Assembly (NCBI GenBank): GCA_028287745.1
Contig: JAQBPB010000040.1
Span: 62,001-126,000 of the forward strand
Length of the DNA stretch: 64,000 nucleotides
Source of the DNA: Chloroflexota bacterium
GTDB lineage: Bacteria > Chloroflexota > Chloroflexia > Chloroheliales > Chloroheliaceae
Direction: 5' to 3'
Shown here: positions 576 to 15,907 of the stretch, one piece after another
Numbering within the stretch: the stretch's first letter is position 1
Layout: every line of letters begins with the position of its first letter
Made by a program: the position numbers and the translations under genes
Notes under the pieces: generated by a model
What the model saw: the letters and a program-made list of their open reading frames with translations, nothing else
Database searches by the model: none
Told to the model about the DNA's origin: nothing

Positions 576-980
576 TCAGGCAGAAACTCTACCAAACTGA
601 CTGGCTGCCCGTTGAATAATTTGTTTTATTACATTCAACTGGGCTTCTTCGCCGGTTTCTTTCCAGGGGATATAATAATCCGCGCCATTCTTGTACGCCT
701 CAACAATAGTTTTAAGGCTCTCATCCTGACCTAGCATAACCACCGGTATCTTTGACTGGCAGTACAGCTTTATCAGGTTGCAAAATTCCAAACTGTTGCT
801 GTTTGGCTGAATGGCATCCAGTAAAACCAGGCTGTAATTATTATAATCGACTTCGCCAATGTGTTCGAGAGCCTGAACATCCAGCTCAAAGTTAACGTTC
901 AACTTGCCCAACAAGGCATTAAGACGGGCTGTGCGAGATTGCGTAGCGCTAAAAAGTAAAATTTTCCCTAAAGCTGCCAT
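576..980 (-). CDS. Response-regulator receiver-like protein (degenerate)
   Basis: CheY-like pattern KILLFSA...LVLLDAIQP...PVVMLG...GADYYIPW; acidic pair absent. Confidence 0.6.
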   Translation of the reverse strand: MAALGKILLFSATQSRTARLNALLGKLNVNFELDVQALEHIGEVDYNNYSLVLLDAIQPNSNSLEFCNLIKLYCQSKIPVVMLGQDESLKTIVEAYKNGADYYIPWKETGEEAQLNVIKQIIQRAASQFGRVSA

Positions 981-1019: not shown

Positions 1020-1379
1020 CTAGGCAGCCGAAACCTGATCCGCGATTGGAATTAAATCGTTCCTATCGGGTTCAATAAAGGACTGGGTCGTAAGCATTTT
1101 GCCAGGGATAAACTGTGGCTGGTAAAATGCGGTTTCCTCAATTTGCTCCAGGACTGCTGCCATTGCTTCGTAAAACTGCTGGATGGTACCGGCCGGTACT
1201 GAAGTAACCAGGCGGCGCTCTTCATCGTTCAGCAGGATTGGGCTTTCCCCAAACCGTCGAGCGTAACCGCGATTGTAGGCTTCAATAGCTTCCAGGCGGT
1301 TGATCATAAATTCTCCACGCAACTGACCATCTAATGCAATAGCAACGGTCAACTGGTCTATCGTAGATTGAGAAATCAT
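1020..1379 (-). CDS. Putative NHLP/Os1348-like small protein, candidate NHLM export substrate
   Basis: MISQSTIDQLTVAIALDGQLRGEFMINRLEAIEAYN...LLNDEERRLV resembles the helical NHLP-clan leader pattern; ATG at 1379 with AGAGGCAGG RBS preferred over the TTG at 1409. Confidence 0.5.
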   Translation of the reverse strand: MISQSTIDQLTVAIALDGQLRGEFMINRLEAIEAYNRGYARRFGESPILLNDEERRLVTSVPAGTIQQFYEAMAAVLEQIEETAFYQPQFIPGKMLTTQSFIEPDRNDLIPIADQVSAA

Positions 1380-1412: not shown

Positions 1413-1535
1413 TTACCAGGGAACAATCGGTCCTTCCAAAAGTGAGGTGCTGTGAACTACTAACAAATTGCCTTCTTCAGTACGAGCTTCCACGCCTTCT
1501 TCAGTGCTGACGAACCCGATAATGTTTGCGTTCAT
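1413..1535 (-). CDS. 40-aa small peptide MNANIIGFVSTEEGVEARTEEGNLLVVHSTSLLEGPIVPW
   Basis: ATG at 1535 preceded by AGGGAGT RBS; TAA at 1413-1415; about 33 bp upstream of the NHLP-like gene, same strand; not in supplied ORF track. Confidence 0.6.
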   Translation of the reverse strand: MNANIIGFVSTEEGVEARTEEGNLLVVHSTSLLEGPIVPW

Positions 1536-1718
1536 TTTAAACTCCCTGTATTTTTCATCTTCCTACAAAGCTCTGAGCAGCCGGTAGGTTAATCACTTTT
1601 TGTCCATTTATATCCACTTAGCTGTCACCCACCTGAGTGAAAATCCGGTGTACAAAAGGAGTATAGCAAGTGATTCTCACACAAAAATCACCACAAAAAA
1701 GTTAGGGAGAAGTAAATT

Positions 1719-4700
1719 TTAAGCTAATTTTAGGAGTAAGGAACGCGTTTCCATGGATGGTTGAAGGTCGAGTTCTTCCAGTGCTTTCAGGCATTGGGTA
1801 TACTGGCGCATGGCTTCGGGTTTGTTATTCAGGGCGAGCAGGCAGGTTATTTCCGCCCGGTAAGCTTCTTCGTTGTAGGGGTCTCGAAACAGAATCTGTT
1901 TCCAAAGGGGGATTGCTTGCGAGTAGTCGGCGGCGGCCTGGTAATATTCGGCCAGCCTCTTTAAACCTTTCAGGTATAGTTCCAAAAGGTAGCGTTGTCG
2001 TTCAATTACCCAGTTTGAGTATAACTGGTCCAGGAAATCCCGCCGGTAGAGTTGTAAGGCAGCGGCTAACCGCTCGGGCTGTAACTCCCGGCTGGCAAGC
2101 GCGGCTGTTACTTCGGTCGTAAATTGGCGGGTGTCGTACCAGACTTCTCCTTGCAGACTGTAACGGTGCGCCTGTAATTTTAATTCGACCGGAGCAATTG
2201 CTTTCCGCAACAAAAAGAGCACATTATGCAATGCGTGGGTTGCATTAATGTCTTCATCATCGTCAAATAGGGCATCTATCAGTTGGTCCCGGCTGCACGA
2301 AGGATTTTCTAATAAATAGAACAAGGCTTCGCGGGACTTGGTGTTGCGCCAGTGTTTTATTTCCTCACCACCACGCCAGACGCGGCCTCCATCAAGTGCG
2401 TAATTGGTCAATCCGCCAGTCGAAATCTTTTGGGCAGCCTCCGGCGAGGGCGGGCCGGTAGTCGGGACCGCCGCGATTGAACGCTGTTCCAGGTAATTGC
2501 CCAGCTTTATCTGGGGCGGCAGAGTTAGATGGGACAGGTGGCCGTGGCGACGCAGGAAGCTTTCGACAACCGGGTTTATTTTCTTGGTAGCCACAAAATC
2601 CATCAAGCCGTTGGCCCATTTTAATTCAAACGGCAGGAAAGGCTCGTAGCCAAGGTCATCGGCCAGTTCCAGGGCGCGGGTGAAGGTATTCAAGGCTTTA
2701 CGCGGTTCGGCCAGGGCCAACCAGTTAGCCGCCTGGATTAAAAGGATGCTGGCTTCTTCCTGGGTCGAATTGGTAGTTTCAAAAATGGTCAGGGCTTTCT
2801 CACTGGCCCCGATCGAGCGCCGGTAGGCTTTATGCCCGAACTCCAGCCAGGCCAGGTTCCGGTAACTGTAACCGGTCTGGCCTGGCATGTTATAGTCGAT
2901 TGCCAGTTCCAGGGTATATTGAATCAGGCTGGTGGCTTCTTCGTAGCGGGACTGTAGAAGCATGTGCGTCGTCTGGTCGTGCAGGATAATCAGCTCCATT
3001 TTTCGGACCTGACCCTGGCGCGCCAGCCTCAATGCTTCTTCGTAGTGGTGCATCGCTTTGGTATAACGGGCGGTATCCCGGTAGATATTTGCCAGGATGT
3101 TTTGCAGGAACAAATTCAGGTACTGGTCCTTGAGGTCCGTGCTGAAAGACAGCGCTTCCTGGAGCATTTCTTCGGCGGGCTGGTAGCGGCGCTGTAGATA
3201 ATAATTGTTCGCCAGGTTGGTCCGGGTGTAAGCTTCCCGGCTGCGGTTGCCGCTCTTAATAAACTGCTGGAGCGACCGTTCGTGATAAATAGTAGACTTC
3301 ATCAGGCGGCCCTGGTTGTGGTAGAGGCGCCCGAAGAAGGTATCAATTATAGCCAGCCTGAAATGGTCGCCTAACTCGCGGTAGATTTCCGATGCCTCCC
3401 GCAAGTGTTTTTCCGCGTCCACTCCCCGGTGATGTTCAATTGCCACCGCCCCGGCTACCAACCGGGCTGACCCGATGGCGTGGCGGCCCTGCTCGGTCAG
3501 CATAAGCTGGTTCGCATTGGCTAATACCCGGTGAGCTTCGGCCTGGGCATCCCAGAATTGGCCGGTCCGCAAGAGTAACTGGGCTTTATCGCCGATGGCC
3601 CGGGCGGCCAGGTCAAAAACCCCGGCCTGTTCGTAGCCTTCAATCGCTTTACTGTATTTTTGCATGGCGGCCTGGTTTTCGCCCTTTTCAAGCAAAAGCC
3701 TGGCCTGTACATTGAGTAAATGAGGGTATTCGTCCTGTTCGCCCTGCGGCAATTTGTCCAGCAGTTCGGCTAATAAATCGGTTTGACCTGCCGCGTAAAG
3801 GGATTGGGCAATTTCGTTAAGCAAACCGGCCGCAGCAGCCCTCTCCCCGGCTTCCCCCAGGTGGCGGACCGCGTCGATTAGATTTCCGGCCTGTTTTTCG
3901 ACCACGGCCGCCCGGTAATGAATATTGCGGTAGCTTTCCGGGTCGTTTTTCAGTTGCGATTGTAAGAAGCGCCCGAATAGATTGTGGTACTGGTAGGTAA
4001 CCAGACCGTCGTCCGACTGGTGGCGAGTGATGAAAAGGTTAAGGCTGGTCAGGTGTTGCAGCCATTGCAGGCAGCGTTCGATGCTGACCGGGTTGCCCGG
4101 CTCGTTTAATAATTCGGCGCATTTCTCCGGTGTGAGCCAGGCCAGCGATGAGCTTTTAACCAGGAAATCCTGTAAATCAGGTTCAAGGTTGTGAAACACT
4201 TCCAGGGCGAGGTAGTCGAATAAAACCTCAAACCCCAGGTCGGTCGGGTTCAGGTTAGGCTGGTTCTTTTTAAACCAGGAGGGGCGCGAGGTGCCGCGGG
4301 CGTTTAAGAGCAGGATAATGGCTGTAATCCAGCCTTCCGAGTACCCGGCCAGGATAGACGCCAGTTTCTCGGGCTGCTCTATATTATAAAACTGCTCTAA
4401 AAGCTCTTCAATTTCAGATTGAGTAAACGCCAGGTCGGGCGGTCCCAGGAAGCTGACCTTTTGTTTAGCCAGCAGCCGGACCAGCATTAGATTTTTGGGC
4501 TGGGTCCGGGAAGCGATAATCAGGTGGACGAAAGACGGCAAGATACCAATCAACCGCTGCAAGAACCAGCTTACGCGCTGGCTTTCGGCGTATTGAAAAT
4601 CGTCCAGGACCAGTAGCGTTTGAATATCGGTCGTGTCGGTCTGGGTCTGGAGCAGCTCCAATTCGTGGGCGAATTCGTCAGCCATCCGGCGCAGCATTGG

Positions 4701-5030
4701 CTCGGACTGCAACTCGCTGAGGTTTTGATTTAACAGGGTTTCAAAGCCCTGGCCGAAGCCCGGAAATGAGCGCCGGACCGCCTCAAGCAAGTAGCGGCAG
4801 AAGACCGTAGGGTCGCGGTCGGGTTCCTCCAGGGTGAACCAGGCCAGCCGGAACCGGGTGGAGCGCGCAAAATCCAGCAGCAAACTGGTTTTACCGTAAC
4901 CGGTCGGCGCTGAGATAATCAATAGATTCTGAGTATGCACTAAATCCAGAAGTTCCTGCAGCCGGGGCCGGTGCAGTAAAAGCTGGGACTGGGGTGGTGT
5001 TATTTTACTTATTAGAACGGAAGTATCCAT
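1719..5030 (-). CDS. MalT-like ATPase / TPR / BTAD (SARP-type) transcriptional regulator
   Basis: Walker A APTGYGKTS, LVLDDFQ Walker B, long TPR-like middle, C-terminal winged helix plus BTAD repeats (YRRDFL...RYLLELYLKGLKRLAEYY). Confidence 0.8.
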   Translation of the reverse strand: MDTSVLISKITPPQSQLLLHRPRLQELLDLVHTQNLLIISAPTGYGKTSLLLDFARSTRFRLAWFTLEEPDRDPTVFCRYLLEAVRRSFPGFGQGFETLLNQNLSELQSEPMLRRMADEFAHELELLQTQTDTTDIQTLLVLDDFQYAESQRVSWFLQRLIGILPSFVHLIIASRTQPKNLMLVRLLAKQKVSFLGPPDLAFTQSEIEELLEQFYNIEQPEKLASILAGYSEGWITAIILLLNARGTSRPSWFKKNQPNLNPTDLGFEVLFDYLALEVFHNLEPDLQDFLVKSSSLAWLTPEKCAELLNEPGNPVSIERCLQWLQHLTSLNLFITRHQSDDGLVTYQYHNLFGRFLQSQLKNDPESYRNIHYRAAVVEKQAGNLIDAVRHLGEAGERAAAAGLLNEIAQSLYAAGQTDLLAELLDKLPQGEQDEYPHLLNVQARLLLEKGENQAAMQKYSKAIEGYEQAGVFDLAARAIGDKAQLLLRTGQFWDAQAEAHRVLANANQLMLTEQGRHAIGSARLVAGAVAIEHHRGVDAEKHLREASEIYRELGDHFRLAIIDTFFGRLYHNQGRLMKSTIYHERSLQQFIKSGNRSREAYTRTNLANNYYLQRRYQPAEEMLQEALSFSTDLKDQYLNLFLQNILANIYRDTARYTKAMHHYEEALRLARQGQVRKMELIILHDQTTHMLLQSRYEEATSLIQYTLELAIDYNMPGQTGYSYRNLAWLEFGHKAYRRSIGASEKALTIFETTNSTQEEASILLIQAANWLALAEPRKALNTFTRALELADDLGYEPFLPFELKWANGLMDFVATKKINPVVESFLRRHGHLSHLTLPPQIKLGNYLEQRSIAAVPTTGPPSPEAAQKISTGGLTNYALDGGRVWRGGEEIKHWRNTKSREALFYLLENPSCSRDQLIDALFDDDEDINATHALHNVLFLLRKAIAPVELKLQAHRYSLQGEVWYDTRQFTTEVTAALASRELQPERLAAALQLYRRDFLDQLYSNWVIERQRYLLELYLKGLKRLAEYYQAAADYSQAIPLWKQILFRDPYNEEAYRAEITCLLALNNKPEAMRQYTQCLKALEELDLQPSMETRSLLLKLA

Positions 5031-5235: not shown

Positions 5236-7656
5236 TTAATTGACAGCCTGTAAGGGCTGCCGCCGGATTGCTAGCGCCGTAATATCGTCGGAAGGCTCGG
5301 CCTTAGCCACGTGCCGGGCCACTTCACTTTGAATCAAGTCCAATATATCTTTAGCCGGACGGCCTGTTTGCCCTTCAAGCAGTGCCATTAACCTTTTTTC
5401 GGTAAAGAAATCTCCGGTAGTATTGCGAGCTTCCGGGATACCATCGGTATAGGCGAACAGGAGGTCACCCGGGGCTAAATAAACCTGGCGCAATTTGTAA
5501 GAAACCCCGGGCATAAGTCCTACCGCCGGGCCGGTCAGTTTCAGGCGTTCTTTAAGCCCTTCGCCATTCAGGATGGCCGGGGCATCGTGCCCGGCATTGA
5601 TATAGCTGACCATGCCGGAGGCCGGGTCGAGTACACCAAAGAAAAGGGTGGCAAACATGTTGGTACGGCTGTGGTTGGCCGAAATATAATCATTTGCCAG
5701 GGTTATGGCATTCAGCACTTCCGCCGTTGCAGCCGCCAAGACCAGCCGGGGCGGGCCGGGTATCTCCAGTAGCAACCGGGACCCTGTACTTATACCGGCC
5801 GAAACCAGCCGGGAAGTGGCCTGCTGGGCCAGCACCCGCACCAGGCTCCGGGTCAGCGCCATGAAAAGGGCCGCCCCTACCCCTTTATCACAGACATCCG
5901 CGACCACAAAACCTAGCTGGCCGTCCGGTAATTCAAAGACATCATAAAAGTCGCCCGAGACTTCCCGGGCCGGTTTAAAGCAGACGGCCAGTTCCCAACC
6001 CTCAGCCTGTGGCAGTGCTTCCGGCAGGAAATCGGCCTGAATCTGCCGCCCGATTTGCAACTCCCGGCGTATTACCTGCATTTCGGCTTCAAGCTGGCGG
6101 TTTAGCTCGGCAATCCGGGCGTTCGCGGCGGCGACTTCCTCCAGGGCCTGGGCCAGTTCGACGTTTTTAAGCCGGAAAATCTCACGCTCGCGTTCGGCTT
6201 TCTCCACGTTGAAGCGGATTTGCATCCCGGCAACTGCTTTTTTGTTATCTTTATTAAAGACTTCGCTTTTTATTTCGGCAAAAAGCTTGTAGTGGCGCAA
6301 GGCCCGGGTAAAATCGCCCTGGGCTTCGTAGACCTGGGCGAAGGCTTCATGGACCTGGTAGGTCAGGTTGCGCGCCCGGATTTTCTCGGCAAGTTTCAAG
6401 GCTTTTTTATAATTTGCCAGGGCTTCCGGGTAAGTGCCTTCCCTGGCGTAAATCCGGCCCAACCTTAGCAGCGTTTCGGCCACGCCGCCCCGGTTTCCCA
6501 GGTTTTCCAGCAGGGCCAGCGCTTCTTTGAAATAAGCGGCCGCTTCCCCGGCAGCTCCGAGGGTTTCATATAGCAGCCCGGCGTTCAGAAAAATGTGGCC
6601 CTTATCGTAAAGGCTTTCCAGGGCGCTTGCCCCGGCCAGGGCCTGGTTCTGGTATTCCAGGGCTTTTTCCGGTTGGCCCAGTTTTAAATAGAGCGCCCCG
6701 GTGCTGGAATAAGAGCAGCTTAGTTGGGCCTGGTGGCCCAATTCCCGTTCCAGTTCCATGCCCTTTAGCTGGTATTCCAGGGCGGTTTCGGTCTGCCCGC
6801 ACTCGTCATAAATTACCGCGATATTACTGTAGGACTGGGCGCTGCCGGACCTATCACCCAGTTCTTCGGCCAGGCTCAGCGCTTTTAACTGGTAATCCAG
6901 GGCCGCTTCGTACTCGCTTAGGCTGCCGTAAATAGCGGCAAAGATGGTCAGTACCGTCCGCTGTCCGGCTTTATCGTCCAGTTCCCGCAAGAGATTGAGG
7001 GCTTTTTGGGCGCAGGAGAGGGCCAGGGCGTTGCTGCCCAGCAGCCAGTAAGCCGCTGCCGCGTTGCGCCAGCCATAACCCAGACCTCCGCTAAACCCGC
7101 CTTTTTCAGCCAGTTCCACGGCGTGTAAGGCCAGTTCAAGGGCCTGTTCCGGTGCGGAATTGAAAATCAACCAGGCCTGGTTGTTCAATTCCGTAGTTTG
7201 CTCTAAAGTCGGTTGAAGGGAAGGGCTCGCCTGGACAGCGGTTCCCAGCGGTTTCCGGACGATAAAAATGTTGCGGTTATAACCTTCGACCCGCTCATAC
7301 TTAAACTCGTCTACACTCTCCAGGGCCAGTTGGACGCCCCAACCGCCCGGCTGGCGCTCGTCCAGGGAAAGATTAGGGCTGGACCGGCCGGCTTTGCGCG
7401 GGTCGAAAGGCGGGGCGCTATCCTCAACAGTCACTACCAGTTCTTTATCCAGGGTCTCGCCGGTAACCCGCAATAACCCGGTCTGCCCGTTTTCGCCATA
7501 GCCGTGCACTACAATGTTAGTTACTATTTCGTCCACGGCCAGCCGCAGCCCGTAGACGGCTTTTTTTCCTAAACCTTCCAGGGTCGCTAAATTGGTTACG
7601 TATGCAGCAACCGGTTGCAAAGCGTCCATGGTTGCGGGAAGGATTAGAGGTTGCAT
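5236..7656 (-). CDS. Fused HATPase (RsbW-like) - TPR - SpoIIE/PP2C phosphatase
   Basis: N-box EIVTNIVVHGY and PGGWGVQLALESVDEF; TPRs; SpoIIE motifs SGDFYD, ADVCDKGVGAALFM, NAGHDAPAIL, LFAYTDGIPEARN. Confidence 0.85.
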   Translation of the reverse strand: MQPLILPATMDALQPVAAYVTNLATLEGLGKKAVYGLRLAVDEIVTNIVVHGYGENGQTGLLRVTGETLDKELVVTVEDSAPPFDPRKAGRSSPNLSLDERQPGGWGVQLALESVDEFKYERVEGYNRNIFIVRKPLGTAVQASPSLQPTLEQTTELNNQAWLIFNSAPEQALELALHAVELAEKGGFSGGLGYGWRNAAAAYWLLGSNALALSCAQKALNLLRELDDKAGQRTVLTIFAAIYGSLSEYEAALDYQLKALSLAEELGDRSGSAQSYSNIAVIYDECGQTETALEYQLKGMELERELGHQAQLSCSYSSTGALYLKLGQPEKALEYQNQALAGASALESLYDKGHIFLNAGLLYETLGAAGEAAAYFKEALALLENLGNRGGVAETLLRLGRIYAREGTYPEALANYKKALKLAEKIRARNLTYQVHEAFAQVYEAQGDFTRALRHYKLFAEIKSEVFNKDNKKAVAGMQIRFNVEKAEREREIFRLKNVELAQALEEVAAANARIAELNRQLEAEMQVIRRELQIGRQIQADFLPEALPQAEGWELAVCFKPAREVSGDFYDVFELPDGQLGFVVADVCDKGVGAALFMALTRSLVRVLAQQATSRLVSAGISTGSRLLLEIPGPPRLVLAAATAEVLNAITLANDYISANHSRTNMFATLFFGVLDPASGMVSYINAGHDAPAILNGEGLKERLKLTGPAVGLMPGVSYKLRQVYLAPGDLLFAYTDGIPEARNTTGDFFTEKRLMALLEGQTGRPAKDILDLIQSEVARHVAKAEPSDDITALAIRRQPLQAVN

Positions 7657-7670
7657 GGGAAATGCCGCCT

Positions 7671-8000
7671 TTAACTTAAGAAGTTGACCGCTTCACTTTG
7701 AGTTTCAAAAATAGTAAAAAGATCCAGGAACCCGGTTATAGCCATGGTATCTTTGATTTGCTCTGGTAAGCTCGTCAGGACCAGGTTGCCGCCGTATGGC
7801 ATCTGGCGGCGCAGTGATAGGAGAAACCGCAGCCCTGCACTTGACATAAAACCAACCCGGCTCAAATCCAGGACTAACCGGCAATCTTCTTTAACCAGCG
7901 GTAGTATTTTTTCCTGGGCCTGGGAGGCGGTTTTGCCATCTATCTCCCCACTCAATTCCACCAGGGTTATTTTACCGCTTTCTCTAAAGTTAATCTCCAT
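7671..8000 (-). CDS. STAS-domain anti-sigma factor antagonist (RsbV-like)
   Basis: LVELSGEIDGKTASQ...LVLDLSRVGFMSSAGLRFLL STAS signature with Ser. Confidence 0.85.
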   Translation of the reverse strand: MEINFRESGKITLVELSGEIDGKTASQAQEKILPLVKEDCRLVLDLSRVGFMSSAGLRFLLSLRRQMPYGGNLVLTSLPEQIKDTMAITGFLDLFTIFETQSEAVNFLS

Positions 8001-8585
8001 AATAACTTAATGTCCAACGTACTACTTCCGCGCAGACCTTGAATTCAGATTATGGTTTGTCACGGATAAAACAAAAAAAGTAGGTGTTAAAAGCTGCCAA
8101 TAATCATAAAGTATAATGTAATCCTTCTCAGCGTGCAATCCTGATAATTTTGTAGTTAAAGCCCTTAAAAATCTTAAAGTCCAGGCCGTTTTAGGACCGC
8201 CCGGTATTTTAAAAAGCTATTGCGTGGCTATGTTGGCTATGTAATAATAACTGCAACCAACCAATTCATTCAAAAGTTAATTGTTCCTGACCACTTGTTT
8301 TATGTTACCGGCGGTCCTACTTTCCCGGGTAAGCCCAAGCAAAATGATAACATCCGGTGAAAAGTGTGTTCTAGCTTACAGATTGTCGCTTGTAGATCTT
8401 GTAAGATAGGTCAGTAAAAAAATTTAAACTTTGCTTTTGTTCCTGACCATTTAACTTTACTGATCGGTACCTGATTCTCCCGGCTAAAGTTTTACCGTTG
8501 AATAATAAACTTAGCTTTCTAAAGGCTAACCAGTCTTTCTCCCCGGCCGGTTTTTGTTAGAGAAATGAGCAGATAAAGGACTTTT

Positions 8586-9413
8586 ATGTCACAACGCATC
8601 TTTCGCCAGGCCGCCCTGGACAAACTGGCTACCCCGGAAGAACTTGATAAAATGATCCAGGTGACCAACTTGCGCGGTTGGATTGCCCTGGGGGGTATTA
8701 CCCTGGTTGTGGTTGCCGGGCTGGTATGGAGTATCCTGGGAAGTATCCCGACGGTAGTCAAGGCTAACGGCGTGCTGGTAAGGCAGGATGGTGTCCAGGA
8801 AATCCAACTCTCCGAAGCCGGTCAAATCAGCGAATTTAGCCTTAAACCGGGCGACGCGGTCAAAGAGGGCCAGGTGCTTGGCAAGTTCAGGGCCGAAAGC
8901 GGCGCGGAAAAGCCCCTGACCAGCCCCTTTACCGGGACGGTCCTGGAAGTGCTGGTTTCCAACAATACCCCGGTTAAGGCCCAGAGCCCCCTGGCCCGGG
9001 TTGAGCAGGACGGCAAACCCCTCAAAACTATCCTGCTGATGTCCCTTGCCGATGGTAAACAAATCAAGCCCGGCACAAAAGTTCAGCTATCCCCGACTAC
9101 CGTCCGGCCCGAGGAGCACGGCTTGCTGCTGGGTACTGTTTCCTATGTTTCGCAGTTACCCGTCTCGGCCGAAAGCCTGGCGAACCAGCTTAAAAGTCCT
9201 GAACTGGCGGCCGCGCTGACCGGCGGGGGTCCGGCGATTCAGGTAGATGTGACCCTGGAGCCGGATGCCCGGTCGGCTAGCGGCCTGAAGTGGACCACCC
9301 AGGGCGGGCCGCCTTTTAAACTTAGCAACGGTACGCTCTGCCAGGCCAACCTGGTGGTGGGCGAACAGCGTCCGATAGATTTGATTTTACCGGTGTTTAA
9401 AGGGCAAGGTTAG
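8586..9413 (+). CDS. NHLM-system HlyD-like secretion (membrane fusion) protein
   Basis: N-terminal TM plus biotinyl-lipoyl-like half-motifs (VLVRQDGVQEIQLSEAGQISEFSLKPGDAVKEGQVLGKF); first of three tightly spaced genes. Confidence 0.75.
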   Translation: MSQRIFRQAALDKLATPEELDKMIQVTNLRGWIALGGITLVVVAGLVWSILGSIPTVVKANGVLVRQDGVQEIQLSEAGQISEFSLKPGDAVKEGQVLGKFRAESGAEKPLTSPFTGTVLEVLVSNNTPVKAQSPLARVEQDGKPLKTILLMSLADGKQIKPGTKVQLSPTTVRPEEHGLLLGTVSYVSQLPVSAESLANQLKSPELAAALTGGGPAIQVDVTLEPDARSASGLKWTTQGGPPFKLSNGTLCQANLVVGEQRPIDLILPVFKGQG

Positions 9414-9415
9414 GC

Positions 9416-11623
9416 ATGTCTATAGATATAGCCGGTCAAAATACAAAAAAACCACCTTCTGCCAGAGTGAAATACAAACGCGTCAAGACGCCTACGGTGC
9501 TGCAAATGGAAGGGGCCGAATGCGGGGCGGCTTCCCTGGCAATCGTACTGGGTTATTACGGCCGCTTTGTACCCCTGGAAGAATTGCGGGTCGCTTGCGG
9601 CGTTTCCCGTGACGGTAGTAAAGCCAGTAATATCTTAAAAGCGGCCCGGCAGTATGGCTTGACCGCCAAAGGTTTTCGTAAAGAGCCGGAAGCTTTGCGC
9701 TCGATGGCCCTGCCTTTGATCGTCCACTGGCAGTTCAATCACTTCCTGGTAGTCGAAGGGTTTGGGAAGAACAAAGTTTATCTCAACAACCCGGCCAGCG
9801 GCCCCTATACCGTAACCGACCAGGAGTTTGACGACTCGTTTACCGGGGTGGTATTGACCCTGGAGAAAACACCTGAATTTATCACCGGCGGGGCTAAATT
9901 TGATACTATCGCCTCCCTGCGGAAACGGCTGGCCGGTTCCAGCCGGGCTTTGCTGTACGTGGTGCTGGCCGGGCTGAGCCTGGTCATTCCGGGCCTGATT
10001 GTGCCCAGCTTTATCCGTATCTTCGTAGATTTTTACCTCGTCCGGGAGCTGCATAACTGGTTTTTGCCCCTGATAATCGGCATGGCTATGACGGCAGTCT
10101 TGCGCGGTATCCTGACCTATTTGCGCGAGTATTACCTGCTGCGGCTGGAAACCAAACTTTCGGCCAGTATGTCCGGCAAGTTCTTCTGGCACGTCCTGCG
10201 CCTGCCGATGGAATATTATTACCAGCGTTTCGCGGGCGAGTTAGGCGGGCGGGTCGCCATCAACGACCAGGTGGCCGCGCTCCTTTCCGACCGGTTGGCC
10301 GCTACTATCCTGGACATTTTTACTATCTTCTTTTACGCGATACTGATGTTCCTGTACGACCCGCTCCTGACGGTGGTCGGGATTTTCTTCGCCCTGCTGA
10401 ACATTGCCGCCCTGCGCTATGTTTCGCGCAAGCGGGTGGATATAAACCAGCGCTTGCAGCAGGAAGCGGGCAAGCTGGCCGGGGTTTCGATGTCCGGCCT
10501 GTTTATGATTGAAACCCTAAAAGCGGTCGGCCGCGAGTCGGACTTTTTCGCTCGCTGGGCCGGGCACCAGGCTAAAATCAACCGCGCCGAGCAGGAAATC
10601 GGGCTTTACACCCAGTTTCTTTCGGCTGTCCCGCCCTTGCTGACCGCCCTTAACACGGCAGTTATCCTGACCCTGGGCAGTTTCCGGGTAATCGAGGGCG
10701 AGCTGACCATCGGGCTGCTGGTGGCTTTTCAAACTCTAATGGCGAGTTTCCTGGAGCCGGTCAATAAGCTGGTGGACCTGGGCGCGACCCTGCAAGAGAT
10801 GGAAGGCGGCCTTAAACGGCTGGATGACGTATTGAGCAACCGCCAGGACCCCCTGCTGCAAACCGAAGAAGAAACCAGCGAAGTTTCGCGCCGGTTGCCG
10901 AAGTTAAGCGGCGTCCTGGAATTAAAGAATGTCAGTTTCGGCTACAGCCGCCTGGCTCCGCCCCTGATTGAAAATTTCAACCTGACTCTCAAGCCGGGCA
11001 GCCGGGTGGCCCTGGTCGGCGGCAGCGGCAGCGGCAAGTCTACTATTGCCAAGCTGGTTTCTGGTCTTTTCGACCCCTGGGAAGGCGAGATTTTGTTTGA
11101 TGGCAAGCCCCGCACCGCCCTGCCCCGCACCACCCTGACTAATTCGTTGGCTGTGGTGGACCAGGATATTTTCCTCTTTGAGGGGACCGTCCGGGAGAAC
11201 CTGACAATGTGGGACCCGACAATCCCCGAACACCAGGTCATCCAGGCTGCCCGTGATGCTGTAATTCATGACGAAGTGGCTACCCGTAACGGCGGTTACA
11301 ACGGCCGGATTGCCGAAGAAGGCGCTAACTTCAGCGGCGGGCAGCGCCAGCGGCTTGAAATCGCCCGGGCGCTGGCCGGAAACCCGGCTTTACTGGTCTT
11401 AGACGAGGCGACCAGCGCCCTGGACCCGATTACCGAAAAATTGATTGACGAAAACCTGCGGCGGCGTGGCTGTACCTGCCTGATAATTGCCCACCGCTTG
11501 AGCACTATCCGCGACTGCGATGAGATTATCGTGATGGAAAGCGGCAAGATTGTCCAGCGCGGCACTCACCTGGAACTCCGCGATGAAGAAGGGGTCTACG
11601 ACCAGTTGATGGCGACCAGCTAA
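9416..11623 (+). CDS. NHLM-type bacteriocin/peptide exporter with N-terminal C39 peptidase, permease and ATPase
   Basis: C39 QMEGAECGAASLAIVLGYYG, HWQFNHFLVVEG; Walker A GGSGSGKST; FSGGQRQRLEIARAL; LLVLDEATSALD. Confidence 0.9.
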   Translation: MSIDIAGQNTKKPPSARVKYKRVKTPTVLQMEGAECGAASLAIVLGYYGRFVPLEELRVACGVSRDGSKASNILKAARQYGLTAKGFRKEPEALRSMALPLIVHWQFNHFLVVEGFGKNKVYLNNPASGPYTVTDQEFDDSFTGVVLTLEKTPEFITGGAKFDTIASLRKRLAGSSRALLYVVLAGLSLVIPGLIVPSFIRIFVDFYLVRELHNWFLPLIIGMAMTAVLRGILTYLREYYLLRLETKLSASMSGKFFWHVLRLPMEYYYQRFAGELGGRVAINDQVAALLSDRLAATILDIFTIFFYAILMFLYDPLLTVVGIFFALLNIAALRYVSRKRVDINQRLQQEAGKLAGVSMSGLFMIETLKAVGRESDFFARWAGHQAKINRAEQEIGLYTQFLSAVPPLLTALNTAVILTLGSFRVIEGELTIGLLVAFQTLMASFLEPVNKLVDLGATLQEMEGGLKRLDDVLSNRQDPLLQTEEETSEVSRRLPKLSGVLELKNVSFGYSRLAPPLIENFNLTLKPGSRVALVGGSGSGKSTIAKLVSGLFDPWEGEILFDGKPRTALPRTTLTNSLAVVDQDIFLFEGTVRENLTMWDPTIPEHQVIQAARDAVIHDEVATRNGGYNGRIAEEGANFSGGQRQRLEIARALAGNPALLVLDEATSALDPITEKLIDENLRRRGCTCLIIAHRLSTIRDCDEIIVMESGKIVQRGTHLELRDEEGVYDQLMATS

Positions 11624-11632
11624 AGAAAGACT

Positions 11633-14600
11633 ATGGCAACTACCACTATTCCCGGCGGCGGCAGCACACCTTCCACCGTCCTGCAGCCACATTTACATAT
11701 CCTTAACGGCCGGTCCCGCCAGGCCCACGTGCCGCTTGATTTTGGCCGCCTGCAAGCTCGCCCACTGGTCCTGGGGCGGCATCACCAGGAAGCGGATGTT
11801 GTTTTAAGCAGCCCGGGCAACCAGGTCTCGCGCCGCCATGCCTTTATCAGCTACCGGCTCGACGATGAACTGGCTATCCTGTCCGATGCCGGGTCGGCTA
11901 ACGGCACCCGCCTGAACGGGCAATTTATCGCAGGCCCGACTCCGCTGCTGCCGGGGGATATAATCGCTTGCGGTGATGTAGAGTTAATTTTCGTGGTGCC
12001 GTTTGTCACCAGCGTGCCGCTTTTCCGGCCGCCCGGCTTGCCCCGCCGCCAGTACCCCGAAGACCTGGAACCCGGCATGGCGCGGCTGGAAGTTATTGCC
12101 AGCCATACGCCCTCCATGCGTCCGGGCTCTTTCTGCCGCCTGACCCACCGCCACCCGTTCTTGATCGGCCGCCAGTCCGGCAACGACTTCCGGTTACTGG
12201 AAGAAGGCGAAGCAGCCCGCCAGATTAGCCGGAAGCAGGCCGAGATTCGCTGGGACGGCACCGGCTACCTGCTGCGCGACCCCGGCGCGTCTAACCCCAC
12301 CTGGCTCAACGGGAAAGCCCTTGTAGCGCCCAGCTTGCTAAAAGAAGGCGACCAGTTCCAGATAGGCTCGACTGTCTTGCGGTTCCGGGCACCCCGGACG
12401 CCGCTGGCCGGTGAGCCGGGTAAATTCCGGCCGGTTGTGACCGGTCCGGCCCCGGTCCTGCGTTTCGCGGCCCGCTGGGCCTTGCATCTTGGACCACGCT
12501 GCGTCCAACTGCCCCTGGACCGCCCGGTAGCAATCGGCCGTTCCAAAGATACCGACTTCAGGTTGCAGGACCCTTCGGTATCTCGCCAGCATGCCCTGTT
12601 ACGGTTCGATGCCGCCACCCGCCGGTTCATCATTTCCGACCGGGGTTCGGCCAACGGGACCCTGGTCAACGGAATTGCCGCTTCGGAAAACCACCCTTTG
12701 GCGCCAGGCGACCGCCTGACCCTGGGTGAGTTCGAATTTATTTTTGATGAGTTAACCCAGGCTGCGGTAGCCGCCGAGGTAGTCGTGCCGCTGACCCAGC
12801 CGGTAACCCTGCAGCTTGAAATTGCCCCTGACGGCAACCTGGTCCCGGCCGGGTCGCCGGATAAACTACCGGCCGGTTCCACGTTGTCGGGGTCGCCGCC
12901 CCTGGTCGCCAGCCGGGCCGTGCAGCCGCTGGCCCGCCCCGGACCGGGTGAACTGGATGACCGGGATATTGACCCATCCGAAATCGTGGACAAAAGCCTG
13001 ACCGAACTGATGGTGACCCGGGGTATTTCTCTAATGGTCGGGGGTAACCAGCCTTTCTTGCTGGACGACCCGGCCAGTGTATGGTTGGTCCGCTCCGGTA
13101 GGGTCGAAACCTTTGCGGTCCAGGTAAAAGCCGGTCAACCGGCTGCGGCTCGTCACCACGTATGCAGCTTCGGGCCGGGTCAGGTCCTGTTCGGATTGGA
13201 CTCGAACCGTTACGGCGAAGGGCTGGGCATGCTGGCGGTAGCGCTGGTGAATACCGAACTGGTCAAAGTGCCGCTGTCCCGGCTGCGCCACCTGTCGCGC
13301 CACGTTGCCTTTAAAACAGAAATAACCGGCCTGATTGCCCAGTGGTTGGAAGCCTTATCCAAAGACATCACCAAAGAAACTATTTCCAACCGCACTGAAG
13401 TCTTGCTTGACCCTAACGCCGAAGTGGCCCTGGAAACCCAGCAGACTGCCAGCCCGCGCAAAGATGGCGTCTGGCTCAAGCCGGTCGAAGGCGAATGCCT
13501 TTTCCTGGGTGAAGAAGACATGGCGTCGCCCTACGATGACGCGCTCTTTCCGCTCTACGGGTTTACCTGGCTCCAGGCCCTGAGCGGCTCCCGGTTAGTA
13601 ACCTATGGGGCGTTGGAAGCCCTGGACCAGCCGGGTTTCTGGAATGGCCTCGACCTGTTTTATGAGCTTTTCTTCCGGGTAAAATTCACGAATATCCGGC
13701 TGGCGACTTACGATGAAATAAACCGGCTGCGTAAGCGGGCCGAATTTGACCTGGCCGCCGGGCGCAATGCCCTGCAAGAACTGGTCTCGATTCTTGAGCC
13801 CGATTCGGCGGTGCCTGGTCTGGCCGGACCGGACCAGGCCGACCTGCTATTGGAAGCTTGCAAGCTGGTTGGTACCTACCAGGGCATAATGGTCCAGCGG
13901 TCGGCGGCGGTTTCGGAGGAGCAGGATACCAGGCGCAATCCCCTGGAAGACATTGCCAATAATTCCCGGATGCGCACCAGAGAAATCACCCTGACGCCGC
14001 GCTGGTGGCGCACCGATGCCGGGCCAATACTTGCTTCGGTCGAGAGCGGCAGCGAACGCTACCCGGTTGCTTTGTTGCCGACTTCGCCTAAATCCTATGA
14101 AATGGTCAACCCTGCCGACGGCACTCGCCAGCCGGTTACTCCTGCCCTCGCGGCGACCTTATCTTCCAAAGCTTTTGTCTTCTACCGCTCCTTCCCGGAC
14201 AAGGCCATCAAGGTCCGCGACCTGGTTAAATTTGGCTTCCGGGGCACACGCAAAGATTTAATAGTAACGCTGTTGTTGGGTATGGCCGGTGGCTTGCTCA
14301 ACCTGGCAATACCGATTATGACCGGCTTTGCTTTTGATACGGTTATTCCTTCGGCAAACTCAAGCTATCTCATTCAGGTGCTGGCCGGTTTAGTGGTAGT
14401 CGCCATTTCGCTTGCCTCCTTCCAGGTTATTCGCGGGGTTGCCATTTTGCGCCTGGAAAGCAAGCTGGATATTTCAATCCAGGCGGGCCTCTGGAACCGC
14501 TTGCTCAGCTTACCCACCACTTTCTTTCGCCAGTATTCGGTGGGTGACCTGGCAAACCGGGCCAACGGCATTGACCAAATCCGCACTTTAATTAGCGGCA

Positions 14601-15907
14601 CGGTTATTACGACTATTCTGGGAACCATTTTCTCCAGTTTTAGTTTGATCTTGCTCTTTACCTACGATGCGGGGTTAGCCGGGGTCGCGGTCGGACTGGT
14701 CGTGCTAATCCTGGCGATAATCATTGGAATTGAATTGTGGCAATTGCGCTACCAGCGCCGCCTGGCCGAATACCAGGGCAAAATATCCGGCCTGGTGCTG
14801 CAACTACTGACCGGGATTGCCAAACTCAGGGTAGCCGGGGCCGAAATCCGGGCCTTTGCGGTCTGGGCCAGGGAATTTGCCGCCCAACGCAAGCTGGCTT
14901 TCAAAGCCCGCACGATTGGCAACTTGCTAACGGTCTTTAACGCCATCCTGCCTATCCTGGTCTATATGGTAATTTTCTGGGCCCTGGACGTATTTAAAAA
15001 CCGGACCTTAAGTATTGGCGCTTTCCTGGCCTTTATCGCCGCCTTCGGGCAGTTCCTGGGCGCAATGATTAGCATGGCAAGCTCCTTTACCACCATTTTC
15101 CAGGCGGTCCCGATTTTCGAAAGAGCCAAACCTATCCTGGAAACCCTGCCCGAAGTTAACCTGAACAAGTCCGATCCCGGCGAACTGAGCGGGGCAATAG
15201 AGGTAAATCACATTTCCTTCCGCTATGCTCCTGACTCGCCGCTGGTACTGGATGATGTTTCCTTGAAGATCGAACCGGGTAAATTCGTGGCAATTGTCGG
15301 GCCGTCCGGGGCCGGTAAATCCTCGATCTTCCGGCTGCTATTGGGGTTTGAAAAGCCGGAGGCCGGGTCGATCTACTACGACAACCAGGACATTTCGGGC
15401 CTGGACATCCAGGCGGTCCGGCGGCAAATGGGTGTGGTAATTCAGAGTGGCAAGCTTATGCCGGGTGATATTTTCAATAACATCGTTGGCAACGCTCCCT
15501 TTACTATTGAAGATGCCTGGGAAGCGGCCCGGCTAGCCGGGATGGAAAAAGATCTCAAAGAGATGCCAATGGGCATGTATACCCTGATTTCCGAAGGCGG
15601 CAGCACTCTTTCGGGTGGGCAGAAGCAGCGCCTCATGATTGCCCGGGCCATTATCTCCCGGCCCCGGATTTTACTCTTTGACGAAGCCACCAGCGCCCTG
15701 GACAACCACACCCAGGCGATAGTCAGCCGCAGCCTGGAAAGCTTGCAGGCGACCCGGGTAGTGATCGCCCACCGGCTCAGCACTATAATCAACGCGGACC
15801 GGATTTATGTATTGCAGGGCGGTAAAGTGGCCCAATCCGGCACTTACCAGGAGTTGATCGGACAGGAGGGGCCGTTTAAACAATTGGCCTTACGCCAGCT
15901 CGGCTAA
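11633..15907 (+). CDS. NHLM-type ABC permease/ATPase (ABC2-like) with three N-terminal FHA domains
   Basis: Three FHA-like modules (LGRHHQEADV..VSRRHA..SANGTRLNG; IGRQSGNDF..ISRKQA..SNPTWLNG; IGRSKDTDF..VSRQHA..SANGTLVNG), a sensor-like middle region, then ABC exporter GPSGAGKSS / LSGGQKQRLMIARAI. Confidence 0.88.
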   Translation: MATTTIPGGGSTPSTVLQPHLHILNGRSRQAHVPLDFGRLQARPLVLGRHHQEADVVLSSPGNQVSRRHAFISYRLDDELAILSDAGSANGTRLNGQFIAGPTPLLPGDIIACGDVELIFVVPFVTSVPLFRPPGLPRRQYPEDLEPGMARLEVIASHTPSMRPGSFCRLTHRHPFLIGRQSGNDFRLLEEGEAARQISRKQAEIRWDGTGYLLRDPGASNPTWLNGKALVAPSLLKEGDQFQIGSTVLRFRAPRTPLAGEPGKFRPVVTGPAPVLRFAARWALHLGPRCVQLPLDRPVAIGRSKDTDFRLQDPSVSRQHALLRFDAATRRFIISDRGSANGTLVNGIAASENHPLAPGDRLTLGEFEFIFDELTQAAVAAEVVVPLTQPVTLQLEIAPDGNLVPAGSPDKLPAGSTLSGSPPLVASRAVQPLARPGPGELDDRDIDPSEIVDKSLTELMVTRGISLMVGGNQPFLLDDPASVWLVRSGRVETFAVQVKAGQPAAARHHVCSFGPGQVLFGLDSNRYGEGLGMLAVALVNTELVKVPLSRLRHLSRHVAFKTEITGLIAQWLEALSKDITKETISNRTEVLLDPNAEVALETQQTASPRKDGVWLKPVEGECLFLGEEDMASPYDDALFPLYGFTWLQALSGSRLVTYGALEALDQPGFWNGLDLFYELFFRVKFTNIRLATYDEINRLRKRAEFDLAAGRNALQELVSILEPDSAVPGLAGPDQADLLLEACKLVGTYQGIMVQRSAAVSEEQDTRRNPLEDIANNSRMRTREITLTPRWWRTDAGPILASVESGSERYPVALLPTSPKSYEMVNPADGTRQPVTPALAATLSSKAFVFYRSFPDKAIKVRDLVKFGFRGTRKDLIVTLLLGMAGGLLNLAIPIMTGFAFDTVIPSANSSYLIQVLAGLVVVAISLASFQVIRGVAILRLESKLDISIQAGLWNRLLSLPTTFFRQYSVGDLANRANGIDQIRTLISGTVITTILGTIFSSFSLILLFTYDAGLAGVAVGLVVLILAIIIGIELWQLRYQRRLAEYQGKISGLVLQLLTGIAKLRVAGAEIRAFAVWAREFAAQRKLAFKARTIGNLLTVFNAILPILVYMVIFWALDVFKNRTLSIGAFLAFIAAFGQFLGAMISMASSFTTIFQAVPIFERAKPILETLPEVNLNKSDPGELSGAIEVNHISFRYAPDSPLVLDDVSLKIEPGKFVAIVGPSGAGKSSIFRLLLGFEKPEAGSIYYDNQDISGLDIQAVRRQMGVVIQSGKLMPGDIFNNIVGNAPFTIEDAWEAARLAGMEKDLKEMPMGMYTLISEGGSTLSGGQKQRLMIARAIISRPRILLFDEATSALDNHTQAIVSRSLESLQATRVVIAHRLSTIINADRIYVLQGGKVAQSGTYQELIGQEGPFKQLALRQLG

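Follow-up and report, generated by a model that had tools for sequence, protein, structure and literature searches.

The question raised by this locus is whether a 40-codon reading frame lying between the gene for a very large regulator and the gene for a 119-residue protein is a real gene and, if so, what its product might do. The window, by which we mean the whole 64,000-nucleotide stretch of Chloroflexota DNA analysed here, carries this frame on its minus strand, and its product, read directly from the sequence, is MNANIIGFVSTEEGVEARTEEGNLLVVHSTSLLEGPIVPW. Translation would begin at the ATG at 1535-1533. The frame starts 183 bp past the regulator stop codon (1719), and 33 bp separate its end from the start codon of the 119-aa gene (1379). 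The initial annotation had described the frame as an overlooked peptide gene, and its account of the start codon, the ribosome binding site (RBS), the strand and the 33-bp distance is accurate throughout.

Table 1. Features of the locus, with positions in the window and the basis for each assignment.
Feature	Position	Strand	Basis
Receiver-domain-like protein, last gene of putative operon	576..980	minus	Response_reg E=2e-6, just under cut-off; conserved in G001 and G002
119-aa NHLP-clan (Os1348-like) protein	1020..1379	minus	HMM from other loci; relative above NF038399 cut-off
Small peptide gene, 40 aa, C-terminus GPIVPW	1413..1535	minus	Shine-Dalgarno sequence, orthologs, in-frame indels
Shine-Dalgarno AGGGAG of the small ORF	1542..1547	minus	Sequence; G/A-rich RBS also in G001, G002 and G004
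Putative SARP operator/promoter: GTGATTT (1691-1685), 4 bp, GTGAGAA (1680-1674), 8 bp, extended -10 TATACT (1665-1660)	1660..1691	minus	Conservation and geometry
1103-aa regulator: MalT-like STAND NTPase, TPRs, C-terminal SARP (winged helix and BTAD)	1719..5030	minus	Pfam/NCBIfam and structure model
Divergent NHLM export genes: HlyD-like, C39 peptidase/ABC, FHA/ABC	8586..15907	plus	TIGR03794, TIGR03796, TIGR03797 above cut-off

No Pfam or NCBIfam library model matches the small product above its cut-off, and tblastn searches of related genomes with the 40-aa peptide return only chance matches beyond its own genome and family. As a result, orthologs were sought by position, by locating the 119-aa gene in relatives and inspecting the DNA 5' of it. 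This comparison places the small ORF between the same regulator and the same 119-aa gene in two congeneric genomes, Chloroflexi bacterium 54-19 (G001; MEAMVMEFVAAEAQVEESSKLVITLPEDGPLTPW) and Chloroflexi bacterium isolate 14 (G002; MKAIVTESVAAEAQIEESSKLIVTLPEDGPLTPW), where it is preceded by an RBS and encodes 34 residues ending in EDGPLTPW. Conservation of the frame in relatives, which tblastn does not reveal, is thus seen by positional comparison.

The manner in which these sequences diverge is that of a translated gene. The C-terminus GP[IL]xPW, followed by the stop codon, is invariant among the window's genome (G000), G001 and G002, and the alignment places gaps of 12 and 6 nt, both multiples of three, inside the reading frame, while gaps in the flanking intergenic DNA are of mixed length. 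Between G001 and G002 there are 18 substitutions, distributed 6/2/10 over codon positions 1, 2 and 3 (dN 0.10, dS 0.74, dN/dS about 0.14), and simulated neutral substitution leaves an open frame with equal or higher amino-acid identity in 0.4% of runs. The synonymous versus nonsynonymous comparison that had been suggested for this gene thus favours coding. A search for the DNA pattern GPxxPW-stop gives remaining matches that are out of frame and inside unrelated genes, and hence no paralogs of the small ORF. Short ORFs are common in the window, and together with the chance-level tblastn matches outside the genome this could be taken to mean that the frame is fortuitous and has no product; the same-position orthologs with their binding sites, the in-frame indels and the low dN/dS ratio contradict this notion, which we find barely credible. 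With sequence conservation, purifying selection, the RBS, a conserved promoter block and a conserved position all in its favour, the proposal of an overlooked peptide gene is close to settled within the genus.

At the equivalent site in another genus (G004) there is a 44-aa ORF with an RBS, ending in NPCGGTNPWGV. It resembles the window peptide in the segment FVSSEKGL (FVSTEEGV in the window's genome; shuffle P=0.004 for local and 0.017 for global alignment), and it is probably a homolog. Two finer features given in the first description do not extend as far as the gene itself: the internal TEEG..TEEG repeat is peculiar to G000 and missing from the orthologs, and the absence of cysteine holds within the genus but not for the G004 homolog. 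The peptides of the window genus are acidic and have no hydrophobic core or signal-like region.

The profile matches (Pfam/NCBIfam) of the regulator encoded upstream comprise a MalT-like N-terminal half, several TPR matches and a BTAD match with E=1e-12. The C-terminal 232 residues, modelled together with 19 relatives (pLDDT 91), superimpose on the SARP domain of AfsR (8k60_I, TM 0.81) and on EmbR (TM 0.74); also matched is 8hvr, an AfsR structure solved on the afsS promoter. Owing to this match with the AfsR domain, the model shows that the protein belongs by its predicted fold to the SARP regulators, as a STAND-SARP with a C-terminal effector. No obvious peptide gene lies downstream of its paralogs in G000.

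By the published rule (PMC10936776), a SARP operator is built from direct repeats spaced by 11 or 22 bp, and its 3' copy lies 8 bp from the -10 element. The most conserved non-coding block between the regulator and the small ORF in three genomes, TGGTGATTTTTnnGTGAGAATCACTTGCTATACTC, contains a direct repeat whose geometry fits this rule, although its heptamers agree at 4 of 7 positions and, taken alone, the repeat is not significant (P=0.27). At the equivalent site in G004 the repeat is perfect and again 8 bp from the -10 hexamer (TGCTAAG-TTTT-TGCTAAG-AGTCCGTT-TATATC; P=0.0008). The operator sequence occurs at a single site in the window. It is strongly indicated by these sequence features that the regulator would activate the promoter of the small gene through the predicted operator, in the way that AfsR acts at afsS.

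The 33 bp separating the small ORF from the next gene could also suggest a leader peptide, whose translation would control translation or transcription of the NHLP-clan gene and whose product would have no function of its own. Selection on this ORF acts at the amino-acid level, however, and the distance to the next gene differs between genomes; in addition, the leader RNA folds worse than its shuffles (z=+2.1) and has no terminator-like site. We regard such a leader ORF as very improbable, and the last two results speak against an RNA attenuator.

The comparison was then extended to other regulators of this type. A SARP-domain search over 301 Chloroflexota genomes gave matches in 128, and the regulators examined were those that ranked highest with a single query. 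About 130 matches to C-terminal STAND-SARP regulators were followed into their downstream DNA, which yielded 106 usable regions, 98 of them non-redundant, with loci from one genome counted separately where their DNA differs. Before this phylum-wide test, the operator had been defined from the G004 site and the rule in the literature: at least 6 of 7 repeat matches, a period of 11, and 8 bp to a -10-like hexamer. Such operators are present in 15 of the 98 regions, against 0.17 expected from dinucleotide shuffles. A period of 12, a class noticed during the test, is enriched as well (8 regions), while each of the controls (the reverse strand, DNA 700 nt away, and periods of 8, 9, 10, 13 and 14) yields a count of 0-2.

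A number of the 98 regions encode a small peptide that looks secreted. Under a charge and hydrophobicity rule, distinct from SignalP, that calls for an RBS, a net positive N-region, a hydrophobic core and a short tail, 15 of 98 regions contain such an ORF on the regulator strand, compared with a single opposite-strand case, which lies antisense to a genuine ORF, and one farther downstream; the thresholds were chosen after several peptides had been seen, and these controls share them. One example is MKNFSARAVIAVVITLIASFASATIVAAGPIATLP. The peptide MKMKTALRTMLVVSIVTITSILSSVPIAAWPVGTCP directly follows the operator repeat GGTAAGA-ATCT-GGTAAGA, and MSLTRSLLVRVTLFALTVVGLIVSSGAAESYSP follows GTGAGGT-TTTT-GTGAGGT. 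Tails such as ..AAGPIATLP and ..AAGPFPTMP are similar to the GPIVPW of the window. Substitutions between close peptide pairs are biased to the third codon position, and all four amino-acid changes between the L110 and L118 peptides fall within the last seven residues. At L098 (G230), an 86-aa propeptide located 141-401 nt past the regulator stop codon contains three copies of LLANPPVGGGSSAT, and thus resembles the known pattern of tandemly duplicated pheromone precursors.

At many of the sampled loci a third component, a further small protein, comes after the regulator and the peptide. The 119-aa protein is 69% identical to its counterpart in G002, 64-65% to that in G001 and 42-47%, over the conserved part, to that in G004. 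An HMM built solely from 13 counterparts at other loci recognizes the window protein (E=2e-5) and the G004 protein (8e-7). One counterpart (L162) scores 48.1 bits against NF038399, the Os1348 family of the NHLP clan (cut-off 40 bits), and two more score below the cut-off, while the window protein itself gives no direct match; Pfam Frankia_peptide presents the same picture, below its own cut-off. A structure model of the 119-aa protein, built from three sequences, is weak (pLDDT 63) and gives no significant fold match. The neighbour had been called NHLP-like, which is apt as regards the NHLP clan and its Os1348-like members but not as regards the TIGR03793 leader: neither the 40-aa nor the 119-aa protein matches that model, and neither has a Gly-Gly motif.

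Secreted-type peptides co-occur with NHLP-clan genes (8 of 13 versus 5 of 85 loci, P=8e-6, training loci excluded), and the best match in the reverse-strand control has E=0.02. Given this co-occurrence and the recognition of the 119-aa protein by the HMM, the window ORF is the divergent middle member of a cassette that recurs at other loci, where it takes the place of the peptide. That this cassette, composed of a STAND-SARP, a predicted operator, a small peptide and an NHLP-clan protein, is widespread in Chloroflexota is close to settled. At L111, L177, L215 and L234 the peptide gene is separated from the NHLP-clan gene by one for a DUF5317-like membrane protein (PF17248, 86 bits at L234; the others recognized by eye). 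Several lineages, among them the window genus and those of L112 and L149, encode a stand-alone receiver-domain protein downstream of the peptide. The 119-aa gene of G001 (L006:1492-1839, contig C85) is interrupted at codon 68 by an in-frame TAA, past which the sequence remains conserved, reflecting either a recent pseudogene or a sequencing error.

Viewed as a whole, the cassette looks like an undescribed peptide-signalling arrangement. We tentatively favour, at somewhat short of even confidence, a scheme in which the regulator would activate the peptide gene much as AfsR does afsS, and the peptide would in turn act as a signal to the TPR regulator. The TPR/NTPase part would sense a stimulus, the SARP part would bind the direct repeats at 1691-1674, and RNA polymerase would be recruited to the -10 TATACT, as by AfsR at afsS, switching on the peptide operon. 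A short signal would derive from the C-terminus of the peptide (GPIVPW here, GPIATLP, GPFPTMP and similar sequences elsewhere); the peptide would be exported by Sec where its N-terminus is signal-like and by some other route in the window genus, and sensed by the TPR domain to close a quorum-type feedback loop. We infer the export, processing and sensing steps; the idea of a C-terminal signal sensed by the TPR domain draws on the adjacency of the two genes, the short tails of the secreted-type relatives, the tandem-tail precursor, the fixed C-terminus, and the concentration of the L110/L118 changes. The earlier suggestion that the peptide is sensed by a nearby TPR regulator thus gains circumstantial support from the AfsR-type SARP domain, the SARP-type operators and the secreted-type propeptides at other loci. 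Against this scheme stand the missing hydrophobic signal region of the window peptide, the weak repeat of the window operator and the finding of secreted-type ORFs, by the rule used, at only 15 of 98 regulators.

Precedents exist for parts of this scheme. In the RRNPPA quorum-sensing systems of Firmicutes (PMC10075063, PMC9765709, PMC11343458), a TPR regulator likewise adjoins a tiny propeptide gene, and the short C-terminal tail, the secretion signal of many relatives and the tandem tails seen once are further likenesses; the size and distance by which RRNPPA propeptides are recognized (10-100 aa, within 400 bp) also accommodate a 40-aa product encoded 183 bp downstream on the same strand. 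RRNPPA receptors, however, are proteins of 250-500 aa with peptide-binding TPRs and an N-terminal HTH, whereas the putative receptor in the window has 1103 aa with STAND and SARP parts, resides in a Chloroflexota host, and is paired with a peptide lacking a secretion signal region. Because two defining traits differ, namely the receptor with its type and size and, in this member, the secretion signal, we do not file the pair as RRNPPA. Leaderless communication peptides sensed by RopB in Firmicutes (PMC10518010) offer a precedent, and nothing further, for a peptide signal that has no secretion signal and is encoded beside a TPR receptor, but these are 8-aa ORFs and the window product has 40 residues. 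A bolder formulation is that STAND-SARP receptors of about 1100 aa sense short peptides cut from the propeptides that their own directly activated target genes encode, together with an Os1348-type accessory protein, that the window-genus propeptide has lost a Sec-type signal, and that these systems make up a new quorum-sensing class of Chloroflexota; this we consider speculative, with roughly a third of our confidence behind it.

The likeness to AfsR-AfsS of Streptomyces (PMC10936776, PMC6988585, PMC2267785) suggests a different fate for the peptide, in which the tiny protein would remain intracellular and influence either transcription or its NHLP-clan and receiver-like neighbours. Both systems combine a large STAND-type SARP, with an NTPase and TPRs, and a tiny gene. 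AfsR reaches its direct target afsS through two 11-bp direct repeats, placed 8 bp from the -10 element, and the putative operator of the window has this spacing; the acidic, signal-free peptide of the window genus would suit an intracellular role. The SARP domain is C-terminal in the window regulator but N-terminal in AfsR, and the window-type products (34-44 aa) are often secreted-looking in relatives and are followed by an NHLP-clan gene. AfsS-type proteins have 63 aa with three repeats of a 12-aa segment; the TEEG repeat was rejected as an equivalent, being confined to G000, and the peptides have no three 12-aa repeats. The slot encodes elsewhere a basic N-terminus, a hydrophobic core and a short tail, for which secretion is the better fit; we judge an AfsS-like intracellular regulator unlikely. 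We know of no similarity between the small peptide and AfsS. At L101, L172, L175 and L179 the operator precedes a different protein of about 70 aa, soluble-looking, with the pattern HVxTxEExxF and no meaningful Pfam match. These proteins would form a second class of small SARP target, so that a small gene behind such an operator need not encode a peptide signal in every case, a circumstance that speaks for an intracellular role.

The complete NHLM exporter adjoining the cassette in G000, G001 and G002 could instead point to a bacteriocin- or RiPP-like precursor, acting by itself or carried by the NHLP-clan protein, and exported by NHLM in the window genus. As in the NHLP/NHLM export system (Haft et al. 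2010, PMC2887384), three NHLM export proteins scoring above their cut-offs are at hand, but the window's small genes have no Gly-Gly leader of the kind that defines NHLP substrates, and in G004 the linkage is lost, with cassette and exporter on separate contigs. The NHLP-clan neighbour also lends this reading some weight, since the Os1348 of Pseudomonas has been connected with antibiotic activity (PMC7726476). The 119-aa protein and its counterparts resemble that family (NF038399; PMC7726476), one counterpart exceeding the cut-off that the window protein falls below; Pseudomonas Os1348, unlike these, lies beside modification-type genes rather than a SARP regulator and a peptide gene, and no modification enzyme was found within the cassette. 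Furthermore, another contig of G000 supplies the exporter with a more orthodox candidate substrate, a 211-aa protein (C111:15941-16423; L092:7833-8468) in which two NHLP leaders follow one another and the C-terminus is rich in Cys and Ser, encoded next to a 1128-aa LanM-like gene (L092:4345-7731; identified by eye), which could be a lanthipeptide served by the exporter in trans. A RiPP-like precursor accordingly strikes us as rather improbable. The proposal that the small ORF encodes the exported peptide of the NHLP system is unsupported on the same grounds, and for want of any leader match; export by the adjacent transporter may be possible, unsupported by any motif, and membership of the NHLM genes in the cassette is not supported. 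A short conserved block at 8360-8425, 5' of the exporter in three genomes (TGTGTnCTAnCTnACA), is inverted-repeat-like and possibly a regulator site, and comparison of the exporter promoters gave no clear SARP operator.

Returning to the signalling arrangement that we prefer, our search of the open-access literature found neither peptide-based cell-cell signalling nor small-peptide SARP pairs described in Chloroflexota. To our knowledge, the TPR part of large AfsR-type SARP activators has no established ligand. In many families the genes for a putative receptor and for its candidate ligand lie together with an operator of the direct-target kind, and both questions are thus directly testable; the cassette also supplies a genomic context for orphan Os1348-type NHLP-clan proteins. 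Upstream of the regulator, at 5236-8000, the window encodes a STAS protein and a TPR/SpoIIE phosphatase that also has an anti-sigma-type ATPase domain; G001 retains the STAS gene at this site but has no phosphatase gene there.
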